IMG/VR virus record: IMGVR_UViG_3300036852_000426
Span: 1 to 21,688 of that record
Length of the DNA stretch: 21,688 nt
Reading direction: 5' to 3' (one strand)
DNA from: a virus
The number at the start of each line of letters is the position of its first letter. The first letter of the stretch is position 1. Below, piece after piece: positions 2,523 through 18,342 of the stretch. The notes under the pieces are model-generated. The model had not been told where the DNA came from. It saw nothing but the letters and a program-made list of their open reading frames with translations, and made no database searches. The position numbers were made by a program, and so were the translations under genes.

Positions 2523-2556
2523 AGGCCGAAGCGGAATTGTCGTTCCGAGACGGCCT
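2523..2556 (-). terminator. Strong interrupted hairpin, possible minus-strand terminator or leader element
   Basis: AGGCCG (2523-2528) pairs with CGGCCT (2551-2556), and CGGAA (2532-2536) pairs with TTCCG (2543-2547). This gives an 11-bp stem with a symmetric 3x3 internal loop and a 6-base terminal loop. On the minus strand the stem is followed by GTTTTG, a weak T-run, so a terminator or attenuator between the neck gene and the tail gene is possible. The plus-strand side has no T-run. It lies in the 107-base gap between the divergent tail gene and HNH-like gene, so it could instead be a leader structure of either one. Confidence 0.4.
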
Positions 2557-2584
2557 TAACCACAAAACGAAAGAGAGTTCGCTT

Positions 2585-3241
2585 ATGGCTGATTTGACTG
2601 ATGGGGAAGTTCGCAACGTAAGGAAAGATTTAACTGGGCAGATATTCGGGAGCTGGCTGGTTCTTGGCCCAACCGAGATTCACGCCAATCCCGGCGGCCA
2701 GTTGGTCAAAAGATGGCGCTGCGAATGCGCCTGCGGCACACAAATGTTTATGGAGCGCGCTACGCTGGTCCGCAGTAAATCGGCAAAATGCAGGCGGTGC
2801 CACACCACGCGATGTATTTACCCCCGCCTTAAGGAACACCCGCTTTACGATGTTTATCGCACAATGAAAGGGCGTTGTCATAGCAAAACCAACCCGGATT
2901 ATCCGCATTATGGAGGGCGTGGAATTGCCGTCGATGAGCCGTGGCGATCCTCCCAATACGAATTTTACTCCGACATGATGGCGTCGTGGCGTCATGGTAT
3001 GACTTTGGAGCGGAAAGATAATAACGGTAACTACTGTAAAGATAACTGCTGTTGGGCAACGTATCGCGAGCAGGCGAATAATAGGCGCTCCAATCGAAGG
3101 CTTACGTGGAATGGCGAAACCAAAACGGCGCTTGAGTGGGCGAGAATCACAGGCATAGAGCAGTCGCTTCTCAGGAATCGAGCGGATCGCGGAATGCCAG
3201 AGGATAAAATCTTTTTCATGGGGAATCTTCCAAGGCGCTAG
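2585..3241 (+). CDS. HNH-like/zinc-ribbon homing-type phage protein
   Basis: This 218-residue protein belongs to a widespread family of small free-standing phage proteins usually annotated as HNH or homing-endonuclease-like. The signs are an N-terminal LTGQIFGSWLVLG segment, a zinc-ribbon pattern CxCxCG (Cys46, 48, 50) with CxxC at 69-72, then LYDVYRTMKGRC, a YGGRGIAV motif (109-116), LERKDNNGNY (141-150) and NCCWATYREQANNRR (154-168), and a helical WARITGIEQSLLRNR tail that may bind DNA. The classical HNH histidines are not obvious, so nuclease activity is an inference. The ATG at 2585 has GAGAG upstream; an in-frame TTG at 2537 would fall inside the hairpin. It opposes the structural operon and shares the bases CTAG at its stop with the stop of the neck gene. 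Its codons are more AT-rich than its neighbours, which suggests an independent arrival. Confidence 0.7.
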   Translation: MADLTDGEVRNVRKDLTGQIFGSWLVLGPTEIHANPGGQLVKRWRCECACGTQMFMERATLVRSKSAKCRRCHTTRCIYPRLKEHPLYDVYRTMKGRCHSKTNPDYPHYGGRGIAVDEPWRSSQYEFYSDMMASWRHGMTLERKDNNGNYCKDNCCWATYREQANNRRSNRRLTWNGETKTALEWARITGIEQSLLRNRADRGMPEDKIFFMGNLPRR

Positions 3242-4254
3242 ATCGAGTTTTGGAAAAAAACCTTCTGGTTTGTCGATGCATTGTAATCGTTTGGGCGCAT
3301 GACGCCATTCGGAACATCGGTAGCGGCGGTCGAAGACATCAGCACCCACGTTTGCAGTTCGCCAGAAATCTTGACCTGAAGAACGTATGGTGTAGTTATG
3401 GATACGGTGGGTAAATTTTGTAGCGAAATATTGGTCGCGCCCTCCAGGGCCGTGACGACTGTAAGGAAAGGAATATCCTGTGGGCCGAAGCCGTAAAATG
3501 GGTCGGAAGGCATGATTAAAGTACTATTATATTCCTCATCTTTTTCCTGCATACTCTGCGTCTCCTGAAAGTCTCGGTATAGGGCGAGCCGGAGCTGGCT
3601 GTAATTCTCCTGATGGAGCCGGGCGAGGGTCGGGTTCTTATCGACGTTTAGGGTTATCTTCCAAAGAATATAGGCGGCGACCGCCTCCGAAACTTCCTCC
3701 GGGAAGTTGATGACATCGGCATCGTCAAAATCATACTTGTAGCCGTCCCAAATCAACACTAGCCGCGTCGAGGTCGTGAGCTGTGGGTAGATCAGAAAAT
3801 TCCGCCCCATTGGCCCAATTGTGTAGACATACGCCTTCGCCATCCAATTAGCCGCCTCGTCCTCATCGACCGGAGGCACCGCGCCCGGCCAGCAGCATCC
3901 CCACCATGTCGAAAACGACAGCCGCCCGCAGATCAAATCCTGCCTATGTTCCCAAGGGTAGAAATTTAGCCGGTAGCGGTTGCACAGCACGTCATCGCCA
4001 TCGGCCACCGAGTAGATGTAGCACGCCTTGGGCTTGGCGCCCGTCGGCATCGGCACCAGATGCGCCTGACTCTCAATGGCTACGTCACCCGAGGTGAACG
4101 TCGAGTAGTTCGCGTCCCGGTAGCCACGGATATACCGCTGCAAATCCAAGATCGCGTTCCGCATGTAACGGTCGCGAAACGTGGCAAGACCGCGGCGGGT
4201 TGCTTCCACCGCCAAGTGGCTGTCCACCGAGACTACGAATTCGGCCCATGTCAT
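3238..4254 (-). CDS. Probable neck/head-completion adaptor protein
   Basis: This 338-residue protein has no motif I can assign firmly. The N-terminus (MTWAEFVVSVDSHL followed by RDRYMRNAILDLQRYIRGYR) is an amphipathic helical segment. A helical middle part (FPEEVSEAVAAYILWKITL, near residues 185-203) resembles head-tail adaptor proteins of podovirus-like phages. The C-terminal 60 residues (LQVKISGELQTWVL, then GVMRPNDYN) look like a beta domain. It lies between the capsid gene and the tail gene, where connector or tail-tube genes normally sit. The ATG at 4254 is 3 bases after the previous stop with GGTGA close upstream. Its stop shares CTAG with the opposing HNH-like gene. Adaptor is the best guess from position and the helical core; tail tube or tail completion is possible. 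Confidence 0.5.
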   Translation of the reverse strand: MTWAEFVVSVDSHLAVEATRRGLATFRDRYMRNAILDLQRYIRGYRDANYSTFTSGDVAIESQAHLVPMPTGAKPKACYIYSVADGDDVLCNRYRLNFYPWEHRQDLICGRLSFSTWWGCCWPGAVPPVDEDEAANWMAKAYVYTIGPMGRNFLIYPQLTTSTRLVLIWDGYKYDFDDADVINFPEEVSEAVAAYILWKITLNVDKNPTLARLHQENYSQLRLALYRDFQETQSMQEKDEEYNSTLIMPSDPFYGFGPQDIPFLTVVTALEGATNISLQNLPTVSITTPYVLQVKISGELQTWVLMSSTAATDVPNGVMRPNDYNASTNQKVFFQNSI

Positions 4255-4257
4255 GCG

Positions 4258-4674
4258 TCACCATTTCTTCCGGCGCCCACCGCCCGCCAGCAGCGGTTCG
4301 TCGGGCGGGGAATTTGCTGTCGTTTGAAGTTCCACCATCGCCATCGCCGGCTCCGCCGCCTTAGCGGTGGTCGGCGCGGTACGGCTTGCCGCAGGTTCCG
4401 CAATTGCCACCGCGGGATGTTCGCCCCGCGGATTCGGCTGCGCTAGCGAGTTGACCTGTCTGGCTGGTAGCTTTTTTTTTAAACTGTCGTAACGCTCGAA
4501 TATAATTTCGCCGACCCGTGGGTCGCCGGATGCGAGAATACTGGACGCCGACTCATCGTCAGCCTCCAGTATCCCAAGCCATGTTCCGCCCCGAGCGAGA
4601 ACAGGCTCAAAGTTCCAACTACGACCCCCCGCCACAACCGGGCGGGAGGCATTGGTTGTAAGCAGGTAGCGCAT
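4258..4674 (-). CDS. Small structural-operon protein of unknown function
   Basis: This 138-residue protein has a folded-looking N-terminal half (MRYLLTTNASRPVVAGGR, then GGTWLGILEADDE and VGEIIFERY) and a disordered Ala/Pro/Thr-rich second half ending in a basic RRKKW. It lies 15 bases after the capsid gene and 3 bases before the neck gene, so it is certainly part of the head-neck cluster. A GGGAG about 12 bases before the ATG at 4674 is a weak ribosome site. It may be a decoration, head-completion or capsid-accessory protein, but nothing in the sequence decides among these. Confidence 0.6.
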   Translation of the reverse strand: MRYLLTTNASRPVVAGGRSWNFEPVLARGGTWLGILEADDESASSILASGDPRVGEIIFERYDSLKKKLPARQVNSLAQPNPRGEHPAVAIAEPAASRTAPTTAKAAEPAMAMVELQTTANSPPDEPLLAGGGRRKKW

Positions 4675-4689
4675 CGGGGCGCGCTCCCG

Positions 4690-6393
4690 TTAGGACTGGG
4701 GCACCGTGCAGCCGCTGATGCTGATCTTCGGGCAGTCCAGACTGTAGTTGTGGTAGATCATGTGCTGGTTCGGGCGATCCAGTAGCACCGTCCACATTTT
4801 CGAGCGGAGGTCGTAGCTGACGACCGTCGGATCAATGACGCACTGGTACTCGGCCAACTCGGTATTCGAGCCGGGCCGGCGCCGCGTCACCTGTTTGGAC
4901 TTCGACGGATCGACGCCGATCTTGATGTCCGCCCAGTTGATGAACCAAATTTGGTTGCCGCGAATCTGGAAGTTCCAGCCGACGACCTGCGTGTTGTAGG
5001 CGTCGATCAAGTCGTTGAAGTAATCGAGCTGGAAGATCGCCAGCACTAACCCTTCCTTCTTCAGATCGTAGTTGTCGTAGACGAACATCAGCATACCATC
5101 GTGGGTGATCTTTTCACCCATCTTGACGAAGCGGGTCGTGTCCCACTGGTACTTCGCCTTGTAGAATTTCGTCATCACCTCGAAGATCAAGTCCGCCGTC
5201 AGGCGGTCGGTGTAGCCGTCGATGGTCCGCGCGTCGTCGGTGTCGGCCTCCCGGTTGCGCCGCAGGTAGTACATGTCGGCGAACAGCAGATCGAGGTCGA
5301 GCGGCAGTCCGAGGAAGTCGCGCACCCGGTTACAGTCGGCCAGTAGATGAAAGATTCCGATGGCCCGCGCCTTGTAGGAGAGCAAACACGTCGGCTGGCC
5401 GACATCGTAAACGGGCGGAAGATTGGTGTAGTTGGCGGTCGTCTGGTTGTCCACGTCGATGGCCATCCCGTAAAACACCGAGTTGTACCACGCCTTGTTG
5501 TAGAGGACCTTTTTCTGCTTTTGCTGCTCGGCGAGCGACATGTAGCGGAACGTCTTGAGGTAGTCGTTCACCTGGCCGTTGAGAATGTAGCCGAGCACCT
5601 TTTCCTGCACCGAATCACGGCAGTAGGATTCGCGGCTCGTCTGAATCCAGCTCGGAAGGAGCTTCGCCGAAAGGTCGGCGGGCAACTCCGGGCAATACGC
5701 CTCTTCGTTGGCCACCGAGTTCGTGCCGATCTCGACCATGCCGAACATCGGCTGCCATTCGGAGCGTTCAGCCGGCGTATACAGCGCCCAGTTGGCGGCG
5801 CTGACCGGAGGATAAACAACCACGTTGGCGCGCGGGATAGCACCAGAATCGGCATTGGTCGCAGAATAGATTGTGACGGTGATCGTCTTCGCCGTCTTGG
5901 TGGTCACATTGTCCCACGTCCGAATGTTGAGCGTCATACCGGCCACGAAGTACCGCTCGATGTTGGCCAGCGTCGTCTGAAACGGACTGTTGCCGAGGCC
6001 AAGAGTGAGCTGCCATGCCGAGGCCGGCGCACCCGCCACGCCACCGACGCCACCGGCGCCCGTGACAATCGTAAAGTAGTTCGCGTTTATGACCGACCGC
6101 TGGATGCGCTGGATAAACGGAAGGATGATCGACTGCTCGCCGTCGATGTTCATCGTGTTCAGCTTGATGTCCTTCGTTGAACCATCGAGCAGGTTCATCA
6201 GCGGGTTCTCGCGCACGCCGAGCATCTTCGCCTCCTTGGTGTCGATGATGGCGCGGGTTAGGGCGATTTCCTTGTAGGAAAGCGCCTCGAATTCAGTTGG
6301 GGTTAGCCCGGTGATGGATGCACGTTTTAATGTACAACCACATGAAGAGTCGATCTTTACGACACGACCTACGCAATTTGCTTCAAGCGCCAT
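4690..6393 (-). CDS. Probable major capsid protein
   Basis: This 567-residue protein of mixed alpha/beta composition has no enzyme motif. It is placed after the portal and scaffold genes and before the neck gene, where the major head protein is expected. The N-terminus contains a CVGRVVKIDSSCGC cysteine cluster and then LTPTEFEALSYKEIALTRAI. A Gly/Ala-rich segment (GAGGVGGVAGAPASAW, about residue 112) may be a flexible loop, and a beta-rich insertion follows. At 567 residues it is longer than typical HK97-fold capsid proteins of 300-400, so extra domains are likely. The ATG at 6393 has no Shine-Dalgarno sequence; instead a 6-bp hairpin (6402-6416) sits 8 bases upstream with an A-rich spacer. 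The assignment rests on synteny and size, not on a recognised signature. Confidence 0.6.
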   Translation of the reverse strand: MALEANCVGRVVKIDSSCGCTLKRASITGLTPTEFEALSYKEIALTRAIIDTKEAKMLGVRENPLMNLLDGSTKDIKLNTMNIDGEQSIILPFIQRIQRSVINANYFTIVTGAGGVGGVAGAPASAWQLTLGLGNSPFQTTLANIERYFVAGMTLNIRTWDNVTTKTAKTITVTIYSATNADSGAIPRANVVVYPPVSAANWALYTPAERSEWQPMFGMVEIGTNSVANEEAYCPELPADLSAKLLPSWIQTSRESYCRDSVQEKVLGYILNGQVNDYLKTFRYMSLAEQQKQKKVLYNKAWYNSVFYGMAIDVDNQTTANYTNLPPVYDVGQPTCLLSYKARAIGIFHLLADCNRVRDFLGLPLDLDLLFADMYYLRRNREADTDDARTIDGYTDRLTADLIFEVMTKFYKAKYQWDTTRFVKMGEKITHDGMLMFVYDNYDLKKEGLVLAIFQLDYFNDLIDAYNTQVVGWNFQIRGNQIWFINWADIKIGVDPSKSKQVTRRRPGSNTELAEYQCVIDPTVVSYDLRSKMWTVLLDRPNQHMIYHNYSLDCPKISISGCTVPQS

Positions 6394-6401
6394 GATATTT
6401 T

Positions 6402-6416
6402 TGGGTTAAAAACCCA
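6402..6416 (-). promoter_or_regulatory. Small hairpin in the leader just before the capsid start
   Basis: TGGGTT and AACCCA form a 6-bp perfect inverted repeat with a 3-base loop, ending 8 bases before the capsid ATG (minus strand). The spacer is A/T-rich and there is no Shine-Dalgarno match. It could shape ribosome access or mRNA stability for a highly expressed gene; this is inference. Confidence 0.35.
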
Positions 6417-6458
6417 GAATATCACTGCGCCGCCTCCGAAGCTGGAATACCCGCCATC

Positions 6459-6527
6459 TATAGGATATACCTATAATTGATTATCTTGCCTGTCTCGTAG
6501 CCCGATCTTGCCTACAAATAATTGTAG
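6459..6527. repeat. Cluster of short palindromes and direct repeats in divergent intergenic region
   Basis: The 188-base gap between the capsid gene and the HNH-AP2 gene (6394-6581) is AT-rich and holds TATAGG/CCTATA (6459-6464 and 6470-6475, 5-base spacer), two copies of ATCTTGCCT (6483-6491 and 6505-6513, 22 bases apart, about two helical turns), and CTACAA/TTGTAG (6512-6517 and 6522-6527, 4-base loop). A TATAAT lies at 6472-6477 on the plus strand but without a good -35. This may be a promoter or operator region for the two divergent genes, or a scar of the endonuclease insertion. Confidence 0.4.
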
Positions 6528-6581
6528 CCAATTAGACACTATAGCATTGACTGATGCACTATTGTGGTTATCTGTTTCCGA

Positions 6582-7178
6582 ATGGCACAAAAAGGAGGTA
6601 AGTGGTTTGTAAGGAACGATAGGTGGATCACCGCCGAATACCTCCGATTCATATTATCCTACGACCCAAATACCGGCGAGTTTAGATGGAAGCAGAAGAT
6701 AAATTGCACCATTGTCGTAGGCGAACTGGCTGGTAGTTCAAGCCCAACCGGCATAATGATAGGCATAAACGGCGCACGGGTAATGGCTCACCGGCTTGCT
6801 TGGCTTTATGTTCACGGTGAATGGCCCGTTGCCACGATAGACCATAAGGACAGAAATAATCACAACAACCGGTGGGAAAACCTCCGCGAGGCCACGCATT
6901 TTCAGCAGCGCGGCAATATGAATCTCAGGCCGCACAAAATGTCCCGGTTTCGCGGGGTGTCATTCAATAAACAACCCGGACTCGCAAGACCGTGGCGAGC
7001 CCAGCTCCGGGTTGATGGCTACTCCAGACAATTGGGGTATTACGCGACCCAAGAAGAGGCGCATGTTGTTTACGAAAAAGCCGCGAAAGAAACTTGGGGT
7101 GATTACTACACCCCGCACAGCGTTCTATTTCCTACGTCCGCGCCACCGCCAGCGCCCGATCCCAATCCGCGTACTTAA
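6582..7178 (+). CDS. HNH homing endonuclease with C-terminal AP2 DNA-binding domain
   Basis: This 198-residue protein has the two-domain layout of a free-standing phage homing endonuclease. The N-terminal ITAEYLRFILSYDPNTGEFRW segment (split here at about 16-36) leads into an HNH domain with AHRLAWLYVHGEWP (69-82), IDHKDRNNHNNRWENL (86-101) and the catalytic-type DH pair at 87-88. Residues 121-177 form an AP2 domain (SRFRGVSF, WRAQLRVDG, LGYYATQEEA, YEKAAKETWGDYY). ATG 6582 is preferred over GTG 6564; a strong AAAGGAGG lies inside the frame at codons 4-6 but no in-frame start follows it. The frame runs 47 bases antisense into the end of the GH130-like gene, and its Pro-rich last 14 residues come from that overlap. 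Lower GC than the neighbours suggests an inserted selfish gene. Confidence 0.88.
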   Translation: MAQKGGKWFVRNDRWITAEYLRFILSYDPNTGEFRWKQKINCTIVVGELAGSSSPTGIMIGINGARVMAHRLAWLYVHGEWPVATIDHKDRNNHNNRWENLREATHFQQRGNMNLRPHKMSRFRGVSFNKQPGLARPWRAQLRVDGYSRQLGYYATQEEAHVVYEKAAKETWGDYYTPHSVLFPTSAPPPAPDPNPRT

Positions 7179-8328
7179 TTTCGGTCACGCCCGCCATCTC
7201 AGCCACCGCCTGCGCCTCCATCGGATTCGCGCATTTCATATATCCGGTCCCGGTGCGACCAACGCGACCGCGAACCACCGTCCAATGGAGGTGCCTCGGC
7301 AGCCCGTCCTCGCCGCGGATAGGCACCGGCATCGAGCCGTTGTCGGCGCTGAAATATCTCGGCGGGATGTCCGACCCGTTGGCCGCACCGAGATGCAGGC
7401 CATCGGCCTTGATCCGCGCCACCGCGCACGCCCAGTCGTTCACCCCCAGCGATACCAGCCAGTTCGGCCCGTCTGGCACCAGCCCGCATGGGAACACCAC
7501 GTAGGGCTTCCACCCGGCCACGTAGCGCGGATCGACGCGGTGGCCGTCCTCCTCACTGCCGACCATCAGCGGCCTCGTCGAGATGCGCAGCGGAGCAAAT
7601 GGCGGCTCGCCCTCGAACGTGTAGGCGGCGGCGTAGTAGCGGATGTAGTGCGGCGCGATTTCGGTCGGCAGCGACGAATGGAAGATCGAAAGCATCGTGC
7701 CGTCCGCTTGCTTCACCGGCGGGGTGCCGCCGCGGAACGCCCCGAAATGCCACATCGCTCCCGGTGCATCGTAGGTGGTCACGACCTGTTCGCCATTCAG
7801 TCGCAGCACCAGATGATTCGGGCGCCCGGCATACACGGCATGAATCGCCCCTTCGTAGTCAAAGAACACCCAGTTCTTTTCGCGGTTCTTGCCGTCGTTC
7901 AGCCCGTAGCGCGGCTGCCAGCTTTCAACCACCGACCAGCGCCCGCTCGTCAGCTTGAGCTGCGAATACTTCATCACGCAGCGGTAATCCTTACCGGGCT
8001 CGTAGCTGCTCATTTCCGTATACGAAATGTATGGCACGCCAGCCACCTCGAAAAGCCGCGGGTCTTCGTAGTGGGCGATCTTGGACTTCCCGAGCTGCAC
8101 CTGCTGGCTCTTGCCGCACGGTTGCAGAGTTTTTGCGTCGAGTTCACAGATGGCCACCGCGCACCGCGAACATGGTTCCTGTAGGTGATAACGGTAGGCC
8201 AGCCACAGTCGCTCGCGGTGGCGGAACATCCCGCAATTCCAACAGCGCGGTGAATCCTTCAGTAGTGCGGCGTTGATCGCCACCGCGTCGAGCTGGGTAA
8301 AAAGAGACGGCTTCACGCCTGCGCCCAT
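7132..8328 (-). CDS. GH130-like five-bladed beta-propeller (glycoside phosphorylase/hydrolase-type) protein
   Basis: The 398-residue protein reads like a GH130-type propeller. In order it has FRHRERLWLAYRYH (35-48), HYEDPRLF (86-93, the EDPR motif holding the family's proposed catalytic Asp), PYISYTEM, EKNWVFFDYEG (150-160), an RGGTPPV motif (199-205), LSIFHSS (213-219), YVVFPCGLV (276-284) and LVSLGVND (291-298). GH130 enzymes break or make beta-mannosidic bonds, often with phosphate. Here the substrate is unknown, and activity is not certain because I cannot check every phosphate-binding residue. About 90 residues follow the propeller. The ATG at 8328 overlaps the scaffold gene by 16 bases and has AAGGTGAT upstream; a longer 498-residue frame is only an antiphase extension across the scaffold gene. 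Finding such a gene between scaffold and capsid is unusual and suggests a virion-associated role. Confidence 0.72.
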   Translation of the reverse strand: MGAGVKPSLFTQLDAVAINAALLKDSPRCWNCGMFRHRERLWLAYRYHLQEPCSRCAVAICELDAKTLQPCGKSQQVQLGKSKIAHYEDPRLFEVAGVPYISYTEMSSYEPGKDYRCVMKYSQLKLTSGRWSVVESWQPRYGLNDGKNREKNWVFFDYEGAIHAVYAGRPNHLVLRLNGEQVVTTYDAPGAMWHFGAFRGGTPPVKQADGTMLSIFHSSLPTEIAPHYIRYYAAAYTFEGEPPFAPLRISTRPLMVGSEEDGHRVDPRYVAGWKPYVVFPCGLVPDGPNWLVSLGVNDWACAVARIKADGLHLGAANGSDIPPRYFSADNGSMPVPIRGEDGLPRHLHWTVVRGRVGRTGTGYMKCANPMEAQAVAEMAGVTEIKYADWDRALAVART

Positions 8329-9671
8329 GCCGCCATCACCTTTGCCGCCCGCGGGTCGATGTCGGGCTTTGTGCCGTTGTCGCCCGCACCCGGAATCGGC
8401 GCACCACGCGGAGCCGCATTTCCCGCCGGCTCCGGCTTTGGAGCGGGTTCCTGTTTTACTGCCGCAGCCGCCTGCGCACGCGTGAATCCGTATCCCTCCA
8501 GTTTTTTGCGCCGCAACGCAATCTCGGCCTCCACCTGCGGTTTCACTTGCGACTTCATGTACTCGATCAACTGCGCGTTGGAAAACGTCCAGTATTGACC
8601 GCGGGATTCTGGCCGGATTCGGCCCCACTCCTCACGGGTCACGAACCAGCGCCCGTTGACGAGCTGTTGGTCGGCGGCCGCTTCTTTCTGAAACCGTGAA
8701 CACGCTTCGTCCATCACCTTTCGCAGACGTTCGTGGATGGCGTACTTCGGGTCGCTCGGATCGGTGGCCTCCGTGGCCAAGGGTCGTCCAGTCGCTGGGT
8801 CTTTCTCGGTCAGCCGCACCATCTCCTTGATCTGGTCAGCCGTCCGCGCGCAAACATCGCCGATGGCCTCCACCTCCAGCTTCATGGCCGCTGACGCCTT
8901 CACGGCGCCGTCTTTCTTCACGGCTTCCGCCAATTCATCCGGCATGGCGACCGCCACCAAATTATTGTAGAGCGCCTGCCCGTGCTGCTCGATCTCTGGC
9001 TCCTTTTGCTTCCGGTACATCTCGTACTTCAGGTCGGCAAACTTCGCCTCCTGCTTGCCCTCGACTTCGCGGGTCACGCGCACCGTCTCGATCTCGCGGA
9101 TTTCCTTGCGCGATAGTTTCGGCATGTTTGCCTCGACCCATGCCTTGTAGTCGGGCGCCGATTCGTCGAAGCCTTCGCGGTTCACGATCTCGGAGTGTTT
9201 CTTGAGGAACGCTTCGACCTTCGTCGGCAGCTCCTTGTATTTGCCTGGCACGATTTCCGCCGCCTCGCGGGCATCAGCCAGCATCTCGCGCTCGTTTTCC
9301 TTTAGCGCCTCCTCCCATTTCGGGTCGGGCTTCGCGGCGACTTCAGCGACCGCTGGTTTCGGGGGCTCGATGACTGGCAGCGCCGGGCGCACTACCTTCT
9401 GGCGCCGAACCGTGATCGGTTTTTCGTCGGCCTTCGGCTCCGCCTTCACCTCAGCCTTTGCTGGTTCCGCCGTCTTCGGCGCTTCCCTCGGCTTCTCTTC
9501 CTTCGGCTTGTCAGGCTTGTCGGTCTCCTCAACCGAGGCGTCTATCAGACGCCGCACCAAATCAGGATATTGTTCGGTTACGAGTTTTCCAGTAGCGGGT
9601 GGAGTGGGCGCAGCGGCAGCCGGCTGAGCGCCAGCATCTACCACCGCGACGTTCGGGGCGTCGTCGGGCAT
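8313..9671 (-). CDS. Probable capsid scaffolding protein
   Basis: This 452-residue protein is highly charged and rich in Ala, Lys, Glu and Pro. Residues 1-130 are a Pro/Lys/Glu low-complexity stretch without a hydrophobic core. The middle (about 125-390) is strongly helical, with heptad-like runs such as RKEIREIETVRVTREVEG, typical of coiled-coil scaffolds. A Pro/Gly-rich linker precedes a short terminal helix (DPRAAKVMAAWAQA), and phage scaffolds commonly bind the coat through such a C-terminal helix. It starts 6 bases after the portal stop. No protease catalytic motif is visible, so it is a stand-alone scaffold candidate and not a protease-scaffold fusion. The assignment comes from composition and location. 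Confidence 0.65.
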   Translation of the reverse strand: MPDDAPNVAVVDAGAQPAAAAPTPPATGKLVTEQYPDLVRRLIDASVEETDKPDKPKEEKPREAPKTAEPAKAEVKAEPKADEKPITVRRQKVVRPALPVIEPPKPAVAEVAAKPDPKWEEALKENEREMLADAREAAEIVPGKYKELPTKVEAFLKKHSEIVNREGFDESAPDYKAWVEANMPKLSRKEIREIETVRVTREVEGKQEAKFADLKYEMYRKQKEPEIEQHGQALYNNLVAVAMPDELAEAVKKDGAVKASAAMKLEVEAIGDVCARTADQIKEMVRLTEKDPATGRPLATEATDPSDPKYAIHERLRKVMDEACSRFQKEAAADQQLVNGRWFVTREEWGRIRPESRGQYWTFSNAQLIEYMKSQVKPQVEAEIALRRKKLEGYGFTRAQAAAAVKQEPAPKPEPAGNAAPRGAPIPGAGDNGTKPDIDPRAAKVMAAWAQA

Positions 9672-9677
9672 GGGATG

Positions 9678-12062
9678 TTATGATTGAGGTTGCGGGTCTT
9701 GAAGCATTGCGCGCCCACCGGGCGGCGGTAGTGGCGGACTGCCATTGACGGGTCCGGCGGGCGCGGGAGGCGCTCCGTTTGGCATCGGTCCACCGCCTTG
9801 CGGCCTGAGCACCTGCATAAGAAATTGCTGTAGCCCTTGGAGCTGTTGCTGCACGGCGCTGACCTGCTTCTTAATTTCCTCATCGGCTGCCGGAATGCGG
9901 TCGTCCTCGCCGGGCGCCAGTTCGATTTGCAGGTCGAGCGGCGCTCCGCTCATGCGGATAATCGAGTTCGCCATGCGGATGATTTGCCCAGCGCCCATCT
10001 TCTGCGCAATCGGCGGTACTTGCAGCAAGAACTGGAGGAGTTGTGTCATCACCTGCGCGCCCTGCGTGTTCAGTGGACGTTCGGCTCCGTCCCGGCTATT
10101 GAAAATATAGTCATAGACCAGATCGCGCAGGTTGCCCATGACCGGCGTCGCCGTCGGCACATTGTTGTCCTTCAGCTTCACGTCCGGCGCCACCCGGAAT
10201 CCCGCCGCCTCCACCACCTCGCGCGTGTAGCGGCGCAGCCCCGGCACCCGAATCTCCGGCTGACCGTGAGTCACCAAGCTCTCGTAGATCATCTCCTTGG
10301 CCGCTGCCGTCATCTCTCGCGGCCCCTGGTTGTTGAATCCATTGATGGCTTGCACGGAGCCCGCAATCTCCGTCACCTCACGGGCTGCCACCTCACGAGG
10401 GTTTGGCTGGCCGAGTTCATTCGGCGACAAAATCAGCAGTCGGTCCGCAAGGTTGAGCAGTTGGCCAAGGGACTCCAGCCCGGCCTGAAATACATTCTGG
10501 ATTTGCGCCTGCACGACCGCGAACGCGGCTCGCGGGTCTTGAATGCCGAGATCGCGGAGCTTCGTCGCGCTATAAATCAGGAGTTTCCGGTCTACCCACC
10601 AGTCGCTATCCGTTCCGTTTTTCTTGAATTCCTCGATGATTTCCGGGTCCAGCGAATCTTTGTCGATCAGCCACAATTGAATCAGGCTCGTGCGAAGCTG
10701 CATGAGCATGTGGGACTCTATATTGCTCGCCTGATCCTGATAGCCGAGCAGCGCCATCGCCATCGACTGATTAGTCAGTCGCCCGTCGTTGCAGTTGATG
10801 CCGCCGTAGCAGGCCGGAATGCTCGGCAGAAACTCCGCGGCGATGATCGTGCAGTCACCGGCTACCGTCAGGTGCAGCCACACATTGCAATCGTAGGTGC
10901 CAATCCCCTCGTGCAGCGGATTGATGCGCTCATAGTAGTGCGTCAGCAGCACCCCGGTATCCATCGTCTCCGAGGAGTAGCGACCGACGTTCGCCTTGAT
11001 GTCGTTGCCGATTGACGGGTCGGGGCCGCGCAGGTCCGGGTAACTCAACACGCACTGATCGAAGTAATAGTTCCAGTAGTCGCTGTAGGTCGCCGCCAGA
11101 TCGGTCCACCCGTTCGTGCAGAAAACGTTTTCGAGATTGTAGAAATCCGAGCCGGTCTCGGTCAGGCTGCGCCATTGCACCAAATCCCAGTAGCCGATGT
11201 ACGACGGCCCAGTGTCGGTGTTGATGTTGGCCAGCGGCGAACTGATGTCGTAGTAAATTCGCGACGGATGCGGGTTAAAGAAATCCACGCCCTCGCGAAC
11301 CACATAGCTCTCGATTTCGTCGGTCGCCTCCTCGCCGGTGTTGGTTTTAACCGGGCGCCATCCGGTCTTCCGATCCCACGCCGAACGCGTGAAAGCCACC
11401 GAATACCCGTAGAGCAACATCTGCCGCCGGCACTGCGAAAAGAAATGCCGATAGTTGTAGGCGTCCGACATCACGTCCACCCTAGCTGAAAGCACATCGC
11501 CGCGGAACTGCGCTACTTCGTCCTCACCTCGCGGATCGTACAGAAAATGCGGCCACTGGTTCGACCACAGTGCATCCATCGCCGCGTGCCGGCGCGTCGT
11601 GTAGCTTTTCAGTAGGTCGATGGAAATATCCGTGATCCGATTTTCGTTCAGCTTGATGACGGTCTTGCCGGACACATCGGTCTTCTTGAAAAACTTGTCG
11701 GCCTGCGTGGTGCCGCCCGATGCTGCCAAGCTGTCGTAAGCCTGCTCGATCTTCAGTTTCCCCTGTGCCCACATCATCAGCGGAATCGTGTGGCGCTGAA
11801 TCGGCGGAGCGTCCGCCGCCATGTCCACCGCCTGAAACGGGCGGCTCGCGCGCAGATTATTGCGCACCCCGTCGATGGTCCGGTTCATCACCCGCGAGCG
11901 AAACCGCCGGTGGATTTCCGCCATCGTCTTCGGCGTCTTCGGAATCTGCTCCGGGTTCAGAATGGTGCCGTCGGTCGCATCCGGCCCGATCTTCGTGGTG
12001 AAAATCTTTCGCAGCTTCTCCGGGCCGCAGCCGTGGCTTTCGAGAATCTCTTTATAGTGCAT
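9678..12062 (-). CDS. Probable portal protein
   Basis: This 794-residue protein is of the size seen in large portal proteins. The N-terminal third is mixed (LKSYTTRRHAAMDALWSNQW near 150). A central part has REGVDFFNPHPSRIYYD and GPSYIGYWDLVQW, as in the clip and wing regions of portals, followed by long helices (ARAAFAVVQ-type and GLESLGQLLNLADRLLI stretches) matching a stem and crown. The last 60 residues are Gln-rich and then Pro/Gly-rich (VSAVQQQLQGLQQFLMQVL), a flexible tail. The ATG at 12062 overlaps the preceding stop as TGATG, so translation is probably coupled. It follows the terminase and precedes the scaffold, the canonical portal slot. The call uses synteny, length and general pattern, since portal sequences diverge strongly. 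Confidence 0.75.
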   Translation of the reverse strand: MHYKEILESHGCGPEKLRKIFTTKIGPDATDGTILNPEQIPKTPKTMAEIHRRFRSRVMNRTIDGVRNNLRASRPFQAVDMAADAPPIQRHTIPLMMWAQGKLKIEQAYDSLAASGGTTQADKFFKKTDVSGKTVIKLNENRITDISIDLLKSYTTRRHAAMDALWSNQWPHFLYDPRGEDEVAQFRGDVLSARVDVMSDAYNYRHFFSQCRRQMLLYGYSVAFTRSAWDRKTGWRPVKTNTGEEATDEIESYVVREGVDFFNPHPSRIYYDISSPLANINTDTGPSYIGYWDLVQWRSLTETGSDFYNLENVFCTNGWTDLAATYSDYWNYYFDQCVLSYPDLRGPDPSIGNDIKANVGRYSSETMDTGVLLTHYYERINPLHEGIGTYDCNVWLHLTVAGDCTIIAAEFLPSIPACYGGINCNDGRLTNQSMAMALLGYQDQASNIESHMLMQLRTSLIQLWLIDKDSLDPEIIEEFKKNGTDSDWWVDRKLLIYSATKLRDLGIQDPRAAFAVVQAQIQNVFQAGLESLGQLLNLADRLLILSPNELGQPNPREVAAREVTEIAGSVQAINGFNNQGPREMTAAAKEMIYESLVTHGQPEIRVPGLRRYTREVVEAAGFRVAPDVKLKDNNVPTATPVMGNLRDLVYDYIFNSRDGAERPLNTQGAQVMTQLLQFLLQVPPIAQKMGAGQIIRMANSIIRMSGAPLDLQIELAPGEDDRIPAADEEIKKQVSAVQQQLQGLQQFLMQVLRPQGGGPMPNGAPPAPAGPVNGSPPLPPPGGRAMLQDPQPQS

Positions 12063-12340
12063 CAGGTCTTGTGCGTTGCGCGTATCATGGCGTAGCTAGC
12101 GTCCACCATTAACTCAAACGCCCTGCCTACCTCTTTGACAATTTCGATGTAATTTCGCTCAAGCATCGCCCGCGCTTCAGCGTTGCGGATATATCCCGGC
12201 TTACCCGACTTTGCTGAAAGGCGCTTTTGTAGCGCGGTCGCCAAATCCACCAATTGCACAATTTGTACATAATACGTTCTCCAAGATATTTCCATCGACC
12301 GCAATAGCACGCCGACAGGTTTTTTAGCTTTTGATTTCAT
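12062..12340 (-). CDS. Small protein sharing a domain with the small terminase candidate
   Basis: This 92-residue protein starts at ATG 12340 and overlaps the upstream gene by 17 bases. Its stop overlaps the portal start as TGATG. Residues from SMEISWRTYY to the end align without gaps to the C-terminal part of the small terminase candidate at 14573-15331: 37 of 74 positions identical by hand count, including the blocks NYIE.VKE.GRAFELM and PGY..N..ARAM/SRAM-like. It therefore looks like a duplicated fragment that lost the DNA-binding N-terminus. It may bind a shared partner in the packaging machine, but its function is unknown. An in-frame start at 12406 would only add antiphase sequence from the neighbour. 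Confidence 0.65.
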   Translation of the reverse strand: MKSKAKKPVGVLLRSMEISWRTYYVQIVQLVDLATALQKRLSAKSGKPGYIRNAEARAMLERNYIEIVKEVGRAFELMVDASYAMIRATHKT

Positions 12341-12689
12341 TGGTGGCCAGTTCCGCAAACGGATCAAGCACGTCGTCGCTGTACGCGCGGCAGACGCTAT
12401 ATTCAAGGGCGGTCAGCAACAGCGCCGTCTGACGGGCGTAAAACCGGGGCAGAACTTTAGTCTCGCGGAAAACGTCCACCGAGTCGTGCTTTAACGCCAC
12501 CATCGAGGCCACCTCGTAGGGCGTGTGCTGCAAAAACTGGCAGAGTCGCGCAAACCGATCCCACGTCCACCGCTCCACGAGCAGCATGTTCGCGTAACGC
12601 ACGTCGATCATCAGCGATGCCGGCGTCTGATGCGGGCTGCCTTGGTTTGGCAGCGACGGAATGTAGGCAAACTCGCGCCGGGCTACCAT
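12324..12689 (-). CDS. Hypothetical protein of the portal-terminase interval
   Basis: This 121-residue protein has a helical core, WDRFARLCQFLQHTPYEVASM (interrupted at about 43-64), that has a helix-turn-helix look, followed by RFYARQTALLLTALEYSV. I do not recognise the family. The ATG at 12689 overlaps the previous stop as TGATG, with GAGGAA about 12 bases upstream. The gene overlaps the next one by 17 bases, so four genes from 12919 down to the portal form a coupled string. A role in packaging or head completion is suggested only by place. Confidence 0.6.
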   Translation of the reverse strand: MVARREFAYIPSLPNQGSPHQTPASLMIDVRYANMLLVERWTWDRFARLCQFLQHTPYEVASMVALKHDSVDVFRETKVLPRFYARQTALLLTALEYSVCRAYSDDVLDPFAELATNEIKS

Positions 12690-12995: not shown

Positions 12996-14570
12996 CTAGG
13001 CCGCGCTGCGGATAAGCGTCTGCGACGATCCCGCAATCGGTATCAGCGCCGTCGGGTTTATTAGCGCGAAATGTAGCATGTAGCTCACCGCGTCGAAGAC
13101 GTGTTTGTGCGGCGACTTGATCGGTTTCAAAATCTCATCGGCCTCCGGCGCCTCGCCGGGTTTGAACTTCTTGCCCTCCAGTTGCAGAAACATCTGGTGG
13201 ATTTTCGGGCAGCCAGACGATACCACAATTTCGTCATCCGATAGCAACCGCTGCAACAACCGCACGCGCGCCACAATCGACCCATCGCCCTTTGGACACG
13301 CCTTAATCTTGCCCAGCGGCTCCAGCTTGTACTTCACGCGGTTCGCCTCGTAAATTTGCTCGAACTGCATCACGTCGAAACTCCCGCTCTGCGCGCGGTA
13401 TTGGTTGAACGACGCCTCGTCGGCCACCCACACCTGCTTCATTTCCTTGCCGACCTGATCGCGCCACCAGCGGATGCGCCGCATCACCAGCGGAATCAAC
13501 GTCGTATAGGGAATGGCCCGCCCAATGGTCACCACCTCGTCGAAGAACACCCACTTCATCTTCCCGCCAATCGGGAGGTGCTGCACGAATACGAATGCAT
13601 TGTTTGGCGAGCCTGGGTCGATGCTCAACCCCATCACATGATCGGCGTTCGGCTGGATGCGGCTCCGATGGCTGGGGCGCCCGTTCTCCTCGATTGGATG
13701 CACATGCCGCACCGGGTTGTAGATTTCACGAAACAACCCCTCGCCCGATGGCCGGTCCACCCACTCACCCGCCGCCATGCGCGCCAACTCCACTTCGTTG
13801 TAGCGGTAGATTTTCGCCACCTGCTCGAAATAACCATCGGGCAGCCGCTCGCGGTTTTCCTCCTTCGGGAAGAATATCTCGGCAAAATCCTCGTCGTAGG
13901 CGCCAGTCGTCTCGTCGATGGGATTCACAAACCACGTCTGATAGACCCAGTGCGACGGCCCCTCTGGGTTACACGCGCCGATGTACTGCTGCACACCCTC
14001 GACGTGCGGGCGGCGGCCAAGCTGGGCGGCCACCGGCTCAAAGTACTCGGCGCTCGGGCACGAGGTCAGCTCATCGACAAACACCATGCTGGGCACCATG
14101 CCGCGGATGCGCTCGCGCAGTTGGTTGGCGTGCGGCGAACTCATCACGCAGATCATCGACCAGCCGCCATGCCGGTTCTCGACCCAGATGTATTGGAAGT
14201 GCTGCTCATCCGACTTTACATCCGAAATCTGAATACCGAGCCCCTCTTTCCACTTTGGCGCTATCTCGCCGATCAGCATGTCCCACGAGCCGCCCTTTTT
14301 GGCCATGTTCTGCGTGCGGACGAGAATCAGCGCGAGTGCGTTCTGGTTCTCGTAGCAGTGTTTCATCAGCTTCGACACGCCCAAAAAACTTTTTGCGCCC
14401 CCCTTGGCGCCCCACAGCAGCAGGTATTTCGCATCGCAGTTCCACGCCTTGAGCTGCGTCGGATTCAGGTCGGGCATCCACGACTCATCGACCTCGTGCT
14501 TCGGCGGTGCCTTCGGCGGACGAATCTTTTCGCCTAGCAGCTTGAACGCTTGCGGATCAATGCGCGGCAT
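12996..14570 (-). CDS. Large terminase subunit (ATPase/nuclease)
   Basis: This 524-residue enzyme drives DNA into the procapsid and cuts the concatemer. The ATPase half shows a Walker A motif GAKGGAKS (54-61), a Walker B MVFVDE (162-167, catalytic Glu167) and a coupling motif ACNPEG (199-204). The RNase H-like nuclease half shows three acidic centres: Asp318 in GLSIDPGS, Asp384 in VWVADEAS and Asp493 in HVFDAVSY. Length and motif order match full-length terminases. The ATG at 14570 follows the small terminase candidate's stop by 2 bases, which suggests reinitiation. It is the most certain call in the window and the anchor for reading the minus-strand block as a phage morphogenesis operon. Confidence 0.95.
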   Translation of the reverse strand: MPRIDPQAFKLLGEKIRPPKAPPKHEVDESWMPDLNPTQLKAWNCDAKYLLLWGAKGGAKSFLGVSKLMKHCYENQNALALILVRTQNMAKKGGSWDMLIGEIAPKWKEGLGIQISDVKSDEQHFQYIWVENRHGGWSMICVMSSPHANQLRERIRGMVPSMVFVDELTSCPSAEYFEPVAAQLGRRPHVEGVQQYIGACNPEGPSHWVYQTWFVNPIDETTGAYDEDFAEIFFPKEENRERLPDGYFEQVAKIYRYNEVELARMAAGEWVDRPSGEGLFREIYNPVRHVHPIEENGRPSHRSRIQPNADHVMGLSIDPGSPNNAFVFVQHLPIGGKMKWVFFDEVVTIGRAIPYTTLIPLVMRRIRWWRDQVGKEMKQVWVADEASFNQYRAQSGSFDVMQFEQIYEANRVKYKLEPLGKIKACPKGDGSIVARVRLLQRLLSDDEIVVSSGCPKIHQMFLQLEGKKFKPGEAPEADEILKPIKSPHKHVFDAVSYMLHFALINPTALIPIAGSSQTLIRSAA

Positions 14571-14572
14571 GG

Positions 14573-15265
14573 CTATTGCGGCATCGGCTCAAGCCGGGGT
14601 TTCGGCGGTGCCTTCGGCGCGCTCACAATCGCCCAGCCCGGTTTCTTCTTCTTGCCACCCGGCATCTCAATGTCGTTCGCGTCGGCCATCATCTTAACCA
14701 TTGAGGTCGCCGCCGTCAGCATCAACTCGAACGCGCGCCCCGCCTCCTTCACGAACTCGATGTAGTTTTTGTTGAACATCGCCCGCGACTCGTCGTTGGC
14801 CACATAACCCGGCTCCGTATCCTTTGCCATCAGCCGGGCGTGGAGCGCATCCGCCGCGCCCATCATTTTCAAAACCTGAAGATAGTAGGAGCGCGATGTC
14901 ATCTCCAGTGATTGCGCGATAAAATGTCCAGTGGTGGACGCCAATCCCTTCAGCGCCTTCAATTGCTTCAGGGTGTCCTCGGGTATGCCGGCTTTCTTTA
15001 GCCCCATCATGTGCATCATCCGCTCGGCATCCGTCACCATGTCGAGCACGTCGATCTTCAACACCTCCGGCGGCAACCCCTCGGCATTGCGCGTCATTAC
15101 GTCGCCCTGCGTCGGAGGCTGCATCCCTTTGGCGTCCGTAATCAAGCTGTTGTAGATCGCGTTGAGCTGGTTGTTGCCCCTGATCCGATCCTTCACGTAC
15201 TCCTTCGACTTGCCGAGAATTCTCGCGGCTCGATATTTAGCCCCATGCTTTCCGCCATTGGCCAC
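14573..15265 (-). CDS. Probable small terminase subunit (start unresolved, possible frameshift product)
   Basis: The frame lies directly before the large terminase and carries a helix-turn-helix-like segment (FIDALKAAV, then YRAARILGKSKEYVKDRI), followed by a helical middle part and a C-terminal tail with a basic GGKKKKPGW. This fits a DNA-recognising small terminase. The coordinates use the only canonical in-frame start after the previous gene, GTG 15265 with AAGG upstream, giving 230 residues. That start would cut the first helix, because protein-like sequence (REVIPLPVFIDALKAA) continues upstream to about 15331 without ATG, GTG or TTG. A much earlier ATG at 15583 would read antiphase through the neighbouring gene and gives an implausible Gly/Pro/Arg-rich stretch. 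A -1 frameshift from the 149-aa gene, a rare start codon or a one-base sequence error could explain this. Confidence 0.7.
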   Translation of the reverse strand: MANGGKHGAKYRAARILGKSKEYVKDRIRGNNQLNAIYNSLITDAKGMQPPTQGDVMTRNAEGLPPEVLKIDVLDMVTDAERMMHMMGLKKAGIPEDTLKQLKALKGLASTTGHFIAQSLEMTSRSYYLQVLKMMGAADALHARLMAKDTEPGYVANDESRAMFNKNYIEFVKEAGRAFELMLTAATSMVKMMADANDIEMPGGKKKKPGWAIVSAPKAPPKPRLEPMPQ

Positions 15266-15292
15266 CGCGGCCTTGAGGGCGTCGATGAATAC

Positions 15293-15331
15293 CGGGAGCG
15301 GTATTACCTCCCGCGACCCTGTGGTAAAAAC
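15293..15331 (-). other. Candidate -1 frameshift site: slippery-like run plus hairpin
   Basis: On the minus strand a GTTTTTA run (15331-15325) is read G TTT TTA in the 149-aa frame, followed after 11 bases by an inverted repeat CGGGAG (15313-15308) / CTCCCG (15298-15293) with a 9-base loop that contains the zero-frame TAA stop. Slipping back one base would join the 149-aa protein to the small terminase frame. The heptamer is imperfect (first base G), so the site is only suggestive. Confidence 0.35.
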
Positions 15332-15753
15332 CTCACGGCGGCTGCCTTCCGCAGCACCGCCAGCCGGCGGCTCTCCGCCGCGTATTGCAGCCGGGTCGAT
15401 TCCCGCAGAATCGAGTCGTCGATCTGGCGCAGCTCGATCTCCCGGTGGGCGCTCGCAAACCTCAGCGGCAGGAACTTCGCGAACTCCCTCTGCACCGCCC
15501 TCCACTGGTTGTCGATCTCCCGCGTTGTCGGCATGGGCCGGGCCAGCAGCTCCTTCCTCTCGTCCATCAGTCGGCGAATGCATGGGTTGCGGGCGATTAA
15601 ACGGTCGAGTTGTTCGGCGCTGAGAAAATCCGGCTTTAGGCGGCGGCGGATTTCACTCGGGATTGAATCATCTTGATGATCGGCAGCAGCTCCGACTCCC
15701 ACTTTGGGCTCCGCCGCAGGTATGCTCCCGGTTTCGCGTTCCTCATCGTGCAT
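15304..15753 (-). CDS. Hypothetical protein upstream of small terminase, possible fusion partner by frameshift
   Basis: This 149-residue protein is charged and helical (SEIRRRLKPDFLSAEQLDRL, then REIDNQWRAVQREFAKFL and RRLAVLRKAAAV). I do not recognise a family. ATG 15753 would overlap the previous gene by 118 bases; an alternative GTG at 15702 with GGAG 7 bases upstream shortens the protein to 132 residues and the overlap to 67 bases, and is perhaps more likely. Its last codons contain the slippery-like TTTTT run discussed for the small terminase, so it may be the N-terminal part of a fused protein. The neighbour's place suggests a packaging-related role. Confidence 0.55.
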   Translation of the reverse strand: MHDEERETGSIPAAEPKVGVGAAADHQDDSIPSEIRRRLKPDFLSAEQLDRLIARNPCIRRLMDERKELLARPMPTTREIDNQWRAVQREFAKFLPLRFASAHREIELRQIDDSILRESTRLQYAAESRRLAVLRKAAAVRFLPQGRGR

Positions 15754-16573: not shown

Positions 16574-16776
16574 AGGGCATCTACGAGATCGTCTGGCTGA
16601 ACAGTTTCGACATGCGCTGCTGCATGGTTGTCATCGCCGGCAACGCACAGGCCGCGCTCGCGCTCGCCAAATGCACGCCATCGGATGCGAATGAAAACAA
16701 GCTTGAACTCATCGACCTGCTAGCCACCGAAGTCGGGCTCGGTGAAGACCGCGTGGTTTGCGAGGAGTCGCCATGA
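16570..16776 (+). CDS. Small hypothetical protein in glycan cassette
   Basis: This 68-residue protein (MKGIYEIVWLNSFDMRCCMV, then AGNAQAALALAKCTPSDANE) has an alternating strand start and a helical middle. It begins in an ATGA overlap with the regulator stop, with AGGAGG 12 bases upstream, and ends in an ATGA overlap with the GT11-type gene. The family is not recognised. Its coupling at both ends argues that it is translated. Confidence 0.6.
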   Translation: MKGIYEIVWLNSFDMRCCMVVIAGNAQAALALAKCTPSDANENKLELIDLLATEVGLGEDRVVCEESP

Positions 16777-17543
16777 GCACCCTCGTCTGCACCCTTCAGG
16801 GACGCACAGGTAATCAGGCGATGCAGTGGTTGTTTGCCTACGCCTACGCGAAAAAATACGGACTTGTCTTTCAGTGCGATGAATGGATCGGCGAGCGGAT
16901 TTGGAATTTACCGCCATACTCCCGGCCCGGCCTTCGGCAACTACCCAGATTCAATGAAGTCCAACTCGCTGAGTTCGCTCGGAACATTCAGCATCCGCAC
17001 GAGCTTCGATTTGATTTTGAGTATCGCGGATACGCGCAAACCCAATGGTGCGTAGATTTCTACACGAAGCGCGAAGCGATCTCGTGTTTGAGACTCAAGC
17101 CAGAGGTGGAGAAGGCTTGCATAGATATGCTGCCACACTTCAGCAAGAGGGTGCCGATCACGTGCCACCTTCGGCGCGGCGACTATTTTGGTTACAATTA
17201 CGTGGTCGTGAAGCGCAGTTCATACGAACGCGCGTTGGAGTGCTTTGGTTTACTTGCGGCACCCTGCTACGTCTCTGAAGAGACACCGTGGCCTCGTGGC
17301 GACCTACCGGAAGAACTGTCATTCATGCCAGATTTCTATCGCATGATGACAACGGCCACATTGCTGCGCGCCAACAGTTCGTTTTCGTGGCTTGCCGCGT
17401 TACTTAATCCCAACGCGCTCGTTCTTTCTCCGGTGATCGCCGGGCTAGAAGGAGGGCGGGAGCACGATTGCCAGTTCGTATCGGGCAACTGGCCGCGCTT
17501 CGCCAATCTCAATTTCACCGAAGACCTGCACGTCTCGCCATGA
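16773..17543 (+). CDS. GT11-type (alpha-1,2-fucosyltransferase-like) glycosyltransferase
   Basis: This 256-residue protein shows the GT11 hallmarks: an N-terminal GRTGNQAMQWLFAYAYAKKY (10-29; family pattern G.LGNQ.FQ..A....), a donor-binding HLRRGD (132-137; the HxRRxD motif of alpha-1,2- and alpha-1,6-fucosyltransferases) and ANSSFSWLAALL (200-211; family pattern SNSSFSWW.A.L). Known members transfer fucose from GDP-fucose to galactose-type acceptors in O-antigens and glycans. The donor here is inferred. Its length is slightly below the usual 280-300. GAGGAG lies 5-6 bases upstream of ATG 16773, and both ends are ATGA overlaps. No membrane segment is seen, so it should act in the cytosol on a lipid-linked, nucleotide-linked or protein-linked acceptor. 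Confidence 0.85.
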   Translation: MSTLVCTLQGRTGNQAMQWLFAYAYAKKYGLVFQCDEWIGERIWNLPPYSRPGLRQLPRFNEVQLAEFARNIQHPHELRFDFEYRGYAQTQWCVDFYTKREAISCLRLKPEVEKACIDMLPHFSKRVPITCHLRRGDYFGYNYVVVKRSSYERALECFGLLAAPCYVSEETPWPRGDLPEELSFMPDFYRMMTTATLLRANSSFSWLAALLNPNALVLSPVIAGLEGGREHDCQFVSGNWPRFANLNFTEDLHVSP

Positions 17544-17746
17544 GCATCCTTCGGCACAAAATTTCCTATCGCGTCGCCTCCGACGTGGAGTTCCCGGCGG
17601 TTTACCGAAAACTGCCTGAGCGGCGCGGATACCCGGAGTTTTCTTTTATCTGCCGCGTTGGGACGTGGCGCCTGTTTGGCCTCCCAATTCTTTCAACGGA
17701 AAAAATCGTCGTGTCGAGACTGACCGATCTCGGGGAGAAGTTATGA
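17540..17746 (+). CDS. Small hypothetical protein between GT11 and FkbM genes
   Basis: This 68-residue basic protein (MSILRHKISYRVASDVEFPA, then YPEFSFICRVGTWRLFGLPI) has a short aromatic, strand-rich core. I do not recognise a family. ATGA overlaps join it to the glycosyltransferase before it and the methyltransferase after it. It could be an accessory to either enzyme, but nothing in the sequence shows this. Confidence 0.5.
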   Translation: MSILRHKISYRVASDVEFPAVYRKLPERRGYPEFSFICRVGTWRLFGLPILSTEKIVVSRLTDLGEKL

Positions 17747-18342
17747 AAGCCTTCACCGAGTCCCTCCGCTACGACTACCCCGACCTCACGCCCGAAAGCG
17801 TGATTCTAGAAATCGGCACACATCGCGGCCAATGGGCGGTCGAGATGTTGCGCAAATACGGCTGCCGCTATGTTGGCTTCGAGCCGATCCGCGAATTCTT
17901 CGTCGCTGCATCAAAGGCACTTGTCCCTTTCGCAAATACCCGTCTTTATCCATACGCTATGGGCGGCTCACACCGCACAGACATATTCAAAGTAAAAGGC
18001 GACATGAGCGGTCAGTTCGCCGACGGCCCTGAAGAGAAGGTGTGTGTTTTAGACGTGGCAGAGCCGTTAAAGAATTTTACCACGCCCGGTGCAGACGAGC
18101 GGTGGGCGCCATCACATAAAGTAGATTTACTCGCCATCAACGCCGAGGGCGGCGAGTTCGAGATCATGGAACGCATCCTCGATGCCGGGCTCACTGACAG
18201 GATCATCCATTTTCAAATCCAGCCACACCCAATCGTCTCCGACTTTGAGCCCCGCTGGCAGCGCATCATGGACCGCATGGCGGAGACGCACACACTTTCG
18301 TACTACGCGAGCTGGGTTTGGGCGGGATGGGATCGAAAATGA
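17743..18342 (+). CDS. FkbM-family SAM-dependent methyltransferase
   Basis: This 199-residue protein has a class I methyltransferase fold of the FkbM type. Motif I is ILEIGTHRGQW (21-31), motif II is VGFEPIREFF (44-53), and the late INAEGGEFEIM (132-142) matches the family's ID.EG.E..vL motif. FkbM enzymes O-methylate sugars or small hydroxyl groups. GGGAGAAG 5 bases before ATG 17743 is a good ribosome site. The neighbouring glycosyltransferases point to methylation of a sugar, perhaps the fucose-like residue added by the GT11-type enzyme (inference). It is shorter than many FkbM proteins (about 240-280). Confidence 0.8.
   Translation: MKAFTESLRYDYPDLTPESVILEIGTHRGQWAVEMLRKYGCRYVGFEPIREFFVAASKALVPFANTRLYPYAMGGSHRTDIFKVKGDMSGQFADGPEEKVCVLDVAEPLKNFTTPGADERWAPSHKVDLLAINAEGGEFEIMERILDAGLTDRIIHFQIQPHPIVSDFEPRWQRIMDRMAETHTLSYYASWVWAGWDRK

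Follow-up and report, generated by a model that had tools for sequence, protein, structure and literature searches.

The window that we analysed is a whole virus record of 21,688 bases. On its minus strand the order of the genes is terminase, portal, scaffold, propeller, putative capsid gene and a small gene, and a sugar operon runs divergently on the plus strand (Table 1). The propeller gene encodes a protein with a predicted five-bladed propeller followed by a separate C-terminal domain.

Table 1. Genes, domains and motifs in the window
Feature	Position	Strand	Remarks
Terminase large subunit	12996-14570	-	PF03237, phrog_2
Portal gene	9678-12062	-	family profile matches the L028 portal, which matches PHROG phrog_6547 at 3e-7
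Scaffold-like gene, directly upstream of the propeller	8313-9671	-	homologues with the same gene order in L004, L051 and L052
Propeller gene	7132-8328	-	398 aa; open frame, clean translation
Five-bladed GH130-type propeller domain (predicted), residues 13-318	7375-8292	-	AlphaFold2, PDB comparison and profile match to 7fip
EDPR motif, residues 88-91	8056-8067	-	D89 at the position of the GH130 catalytic Asp; aligned to EDPR of 7fip/9fj8
EKNWVFF motif, residues 150-156	7861-7881	-	family signature; K151 aligns with the Lys of GH130 'NKD'
C-terminal domain, residues 322-398	7135-7365	-	about 75 residues; conserved in L051 and L052
HNH endonuclease gene, between propeller and capsid genes	6564-7178	+	antisense insertion; PF13392, phrog_99
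Putative major capsid protein	4690-6393	-	conserved; also follows the scaffold gene in L051, L052 and 27 relatives
Small gene directly after the capsid gene	4258-4674	-	carries a domain common to the propeller tail
Methyltransf_24 gene of the divergent sugar operon	19348-19989	+	homologues adjoin propellers in other viruses
GT2 glycosyltransferase, truncated by the end of the window	20819-21688	+	homologues adjoin propellers in other viruses
Rest of the sugar operon	16773-20828	+	weak GT11-like gene, FkbM methyltransferase, unclassified gene, methyltransferase-like gene, GT25

The propeller gene and its place in the head operon

A chance open reading frame at 7132-8328 was ruled out, because conserved homologues occupy the same place in relatives, and therefore we consider it a real gene. 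These homologues were found in L051 and L052, two 72-kb IMG/VR contigs whose propellers are 55-56% and 36% identical to that of the window respectively, and in L004, a phage fragment in a gammaproteobacterial MAG; L004 breaks off within the propeller, which directly follows its scaffold gene, and the propeller fragment is also 55-56% identical. When aligned with the window, the homologues of L004 (MKPSLFEQ) and L051 (VKPSLFTQ) begin at the GTG at 8316, which is therefore a more likely start than the ATG at 8328. With this start the overlap with the scaffold stop is GTGA, 4 bases long. The initial annotation had reported an overlap of 16 bases with the scaffold gene; the overlap itself stands, and its size probably has to be reduced.

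Regarding the neighbours, the gene after the propeller is a putative capsid gene by its position and by its homology to 27 relatives that share this gene order. It matched no named capsid family or solved structure in Pfam, PHROG, NCBIfam or the PDB, and a profile of 13 capsid candidates found no credible match in the PDB. The antisense HNH endonuclease gene overlaps the 3'-end of the propeller gene by 47 bases and was not found at the corresponding position of L051 and L052. Another HNH endonuclease gene, of the phrog_374 type, lies at 2537-3241 on the plus strand, in antisense among structural genes. Two further minus-strand genes, 14573-15583 and 12062-12406, both match one protein of L004 (frame 793-1836), which suggests the duplication of a packaging-region gene.

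Searches with portal and capsid profiles found the order scaffold, propeller, capsid also in L051 and L052. Another 27 loci (near-copies included) with the same portal and capsid genes had a scaffold-like gene and no propeller in the interval; all the relatives are metagenomic. A portal tree of 23 rows grouped the four carriers (window, L004, L051 and L052) in one clade with a support of 99/97, and the presence of the propeller needs one change on this tree. As judged from the sequences, the propeller is a gene that was gained once between the scaffold and capsid genes. The identity between the window and L051 is 55% for the propeller and only 36% for the scaffold. The position in the head operon that had been described for the window is thus real and conserved across the clade (window, L051, L052 and, as far as the contig end, L004), and the synteny in related phages shows the place kept in this clade, with the propeller absent from the other relatives that have the same portal and putative capsid genes.

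Fold and active site of the propeller

The AlphaFold2 model predicts a five-bladed propeller over residues 13-318, with a core pLDDT of about 90 and low confidence beyond residue 319. In the comparison with the PDB this model reached a Z of 26.1 to 7fip, a beta-1,2-mannobiose phosphorylase, of 25-26 with GH130 phosphorylases and of about 22 with the Leishmania GT108 enzymes (22.2 to 6q4y). Structures of GH43 scored lower than GH130 (Z at most 20), so GH43 identity was rejected, as was GH32 identity, which was seen only as weak profile hits. The GH130 family of Pfam, PF04041, matched the window propeller with 28.6 bits (cut-off 26) and an E of 8.8e-7, over residues 201-309 only; the L001 and L051 homologues fall below the cut-off. 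A profile of 16 family sequences matched 7fip over the whole domain with an E of 3.3e-19.

Other searches gave less. The NCBIfam models of beta-1,2-mannobiose phosphorylase matched far under their cut-offs, the window propeller had no PHROG match (that of L051 matched phrog_28262, whose function is not known, at 2.6e-5), and phmmer of the window propeller alone against the PDB returned ferredoxin reductase noise only. Four family members compared by tblastn with 50,697 INPHARED phage records gave no match, nor did the putative capsid and the portal match INPHARED phage records, and therefore annotated isolates give no help. Among the structural relatives in BFVD are proteins of giant viruses that carry the names pyruvyl transferase, LicD and fucosyltransferase. 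The description of a GH130-like five-bladed propeller, for which a search against GH130, GH43 and GH32 and a structure prediction had been proposed, agrees with these results: GH130 is the best match, the propeller fold is predicted, and neither another kind of fold nor a best match to a non-enzymatic virion family was found for the propeller domain.

In the GH130_NC beta-1,2-mannosidase BT3780, Asn74, Asp142 and Asp363 bind the -1 mannose, with Asp142 as the candidate acid, and Lys199 marks the beta-1,2 linkage; the base of GH130 hydrolases is Glu227/Glu268 (BT3780), and GH130 phosphorylases bind phosphate by three basic residues (PMC4599007). We aligned the phage family with 7fip and 9fj8, so that the correspondence of residues comes from sequence alignment and spacing and not from superposed coordinates. 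The Asn, the Arg, the Glu-Asp pair, the Lys and the C-terminal Asp are kept, which places the catalytic Asp of GH130 at D89 and the Asn/Asp of the -1 subsite at N31 and D298. Across the 16 rows of the family alignment N31, R46, D89 and EKNW (150-153) are invariant and E88, H217, Y231 and D298 near-invariant, and these conserved residues include those of the GH130 sugar site. The full EKNWVFF is common to the alignment, and L051 and L052 keep EKNW and vary the next residue. The pairing of K151 is the less certain part, since HMMER placed the Lys region differently.

The phosphate site, by contrast, has changed. Of its three positions, assigned by alignment spacing, two are lost and only that of K151 is basic: the positions of R177/R178 and K211 in 7fip are A167/G168 and A197 here and vary in the family. 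In the family alignment, which BT3780 itself lies outside, no conserved acidic residue was found in the Glu227/Glu268 regions, and no replacement nucleophile-side residue was evident in the alignment with 7fip and 9fj8. Because two phosphate positions and the Glu pair of the hydrolases are missing while the sugar site is kept, the propeller, going by its sequence, does not fit the standard pattern of a phosphorylase or of a hydrolase. The plain glycoside phosphorylase or hydrolase of the initial annotation is not supported, and the comparison of EDPR and phosphate positions that it had called for is split, with EDPR and the catalytic Asp retained and the phosphate site mostly gone.

Compared with the GH130 phosphorylases (7fip), the protein shares the five-bladed fold, the profile match over the whole domain, EDPR and the sugar-binding residues; it differs in having EKNWVFF for NKDAALL, in the phosphate site, in the extra C-terminal domain and in the phage head operon as its setting. 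It is like BT3780 in fold, in the Glu-Asp pair (E88-D89) and in the Lys at the 'NKD' position, and unlike it in the absent Glu pair and in showing no sign of secretion. The dual mannosyltransferase/phosphorylases of Leishmania (GT108; 6q4x, 6q50) have the same fold as the model and are a precedent that a GH130-like propeller can act as a transferase (PMC8950772). However, they come from other organisms, no sequence-level match was found (no GT108 (MPT) chain was listed in a profile search of the PDB at E up to 10), and the likeness of the modelled fold does not imply that a donor is used in the same way here.

These residues also bear on whether the protein might be a virion-borne or lysate glycosidase or phosphorylase that degrades beta-mannoside glycans of the host, like a depolymerase. 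The homology to the GH130 clan would suit such an enzyme. Nevertheless, we hold it to be very improbable, since the Arg168/Lys212-type phosphate-binding positions and the Glu227/Glu268-type pair are absent, the context is not that of tail genes and the relatives lie in synthesis operons.

The C-terminal domain and the sugar genes

Residues 319-398 form a separate conserved domain outside the propeller; disorder, as the low pLDDT might indicate, was ruled out by the conservation in L051 and L052. Residues 322-398 are similar to the N-terminal region of the small post-capsid protein, the product of the gene 4258-4674, which has about 20 homologues in the relatives. The tail of L052 finds its own post-capsid protein (phmmer E 1.9e-5), and the profile-profile score between tail and post-capsid protein is 41.7, where 100 column shuffles reached 17.7 at most. 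Among 4,060 ORFs the tail profile ranks the post-capsid proteins first after the propellers themselves, and in the reverse search the L052 propeller comes next after the clear members of the post-capsid family (E 0.048). The post-capsid protein also hit DUF7302 (E 0.06) and a head-tail connector PHROG (0.011); both hits are weak and were not used as evidence. The earlier idea of a capsid-bound protein is weakly favoured by this relationship to a product of the head region.

Such a domain would also suit a non-catalytic lectin, that is, a GH130 sugar pocket displayed on the capsid via the C-terminal domain and binding glycans of the host, of mucus or of biofilm, or the phage's own glycan. The sugar-site residues are kept and the nucleophile-side residues lost, as would be expected of a lectin, and the fusions to transferases described below would fit an acceptor-recognition module as well. 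However, none of the 16 diverse sequences departs from D89 or from any residue of EKNW, which is more than binding alone would seem to need, and most relatives lie in biosynthetic operons and lack the head-region domain. We regard a lectin as unlikely, if still a serious candidate.

Scans of viral contigs and MAGs provided further members of the family, and most EKNW propellers have sugar genes clustered around them or form fusions with sugar enzymes. L001, L012 and L013 have GT9-like-propeller fusions (weak PF01075, at the same place in all three) and L005 a fusion to a methyltransferase (Methyltransf_24). The operons around the propeller contain GT4, GT64 and a pyruvyltransferase in L003, DegT and PglD in L011, Methyltransf_24, GT25 and DegT in L016 and a sulfotransferase in L019, and in L008 the propeller lies within a Verrucomicrobiales polysaccharide locus (read by eye). 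The GT9-like-propeller fusion of L013 is located, with Methyltransf_24, GT2 and a GroES gene, between scaffold-like and capsid-like genes, and L014 has a similar order, the scaffold and capsid assignments in L011-L014 being made only from gene order and mutual homology. In the L001 phage the capsid gene lies next to the scaffold gene, and the propeller is part of the sugar operon. The family is also bacterial, because in L006 and L007, contigs of Chlamydiia MAGs, EKNW propeller proteins are found beside cell genes.

Two side observations concern these loci. The GroES-like co-chaperonin gene of L013 (4751-5044) follows the scaffold-like gene and precedes the GT9-like-propeller fusion. The 137-kb phage contig L018 encodes at 3208-6645 a protein of 1,145 aa with collagen-like and PKD-like stretches (by eye) and an EKNW propeller end, which is possibly a fibre-like virion protein.

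In L012 and L013, homologues of the Methyltransf_24 and GT2 genes of the window lie immediately beside the propeller, and in L001 they share its cluster; the L051 phage has Methyltransf_24, an FkbM-like gene (by eye) and GT2 in a row. Methyltransf_24 was not found in the propeller-less relatives L028 and L035, nor were GT2 and the propeller in L026, L028, L035 and L037. L052 has no detectable Methyltransf_24 or GT2, nor a detectable GT25 (the same GT25 search was silent in the controls too); directly after its propeller there is a methyltransferase-like gene. That homologues of Methyltransf_24 and GT2 are neighbours of the propeller in other viruses, and that the L051 phage carries both, supports the functional link to the sugar operon that had been suggested for the window. 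Glycosyltransferases are encoded with the propeller, as in a virion-glycosylation cassette, and the glycan genes are probably a cassette of this kind.

The target of the glycan could be a different one, namely the phage DNA, as hypermodified bases, or the host surface, for superinfection exclusion, and then the position in the head operon would merely be convenient for late expression. Phage glycosyltransferases are known in these roles (PMC12619734). Nevertheless, no base-modification genes were recognised in the window. The propeller was, moreover, gained in a single clade, precisely in the interval from scaffold to capsid gene, and carries a head-region domain. These points argue against the two targets, which we find improbable.

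A possible role in the glycosylation of the phage head

The explanation that we prefer, although it falls just short of an even chance, is that the propeller is part of a phage glycan cassette, was moved into the head operon and acts on a glycan of the head proteins. The cassette (propeller, FkbM and Methyltransf_24 methyltransferases, GT25 and GT2) would build a methylated sugar structure. In the clade of the window the propeller gene would have moved into the head operon and gained the C-terminal head-region domain, which, as a guess, docks the propeller to the capsid. The propeller would work on a glycan attached to head proteins, so that the glycan would sit on the virion. We infer that it is catalytic and not merely sugar-binding; an inverting transfer or synthesis of beta-mannosyl type, with D89 as the acid/base, would be most likely, and is proposed by analogy with the GT108/GH130 clan.

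The observations behind this explanation are the fold, as modelled, the conserved sugar site and Asp, the position, the clade, the co-occurrence and fusion with sugar genes and the homology of the C-terminal domain. The loss of two phosphate positions counts against it, as does L052, whose propeller stands without detectable Methyltransf_24, GT2 and GT25. A more specific version, in which a capsid-anchored glycosyltransferase with the propeller fold and no phosphate site, gained once, finishes a methylated glycan on the capsid or procapsid, seems to us rather unlikely.

There is a known parallel in the mycobacteriophages Che8 and Rita, where phage-encoded glycosyltransferases are reported to modify capsid proteins (Freeman et al. 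2023, cited in PMC11256854). The likeness lies in the phage-encoded glycosyltransferases. For Maravista, which is related to Che8 and Rita, the passage of that source on the glycosyltransferase genes places them near the 3'-end of the genome and mentions no propeller component (PMC11256854).

Virion glycosylation is known in few phages, and which phages do it, with which enzymes and how the capsid is targeted are mostly open questions. The locus offers a testable design, with a sugar-site propeller in the head operon, a head-region domain and recognisable partner genes. Moreover, the EKNW propeller family connects phages with giant viruses (through structural matches) and with polysaccharide loci of bacteria, and it would mark glycan synthesis by viruses that is still uncharacterised. 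A propeller resembling mannose enzymes and carrying a head-region domain suggests a phage that may coat its own particle with sugar, or edit the sugar on it.
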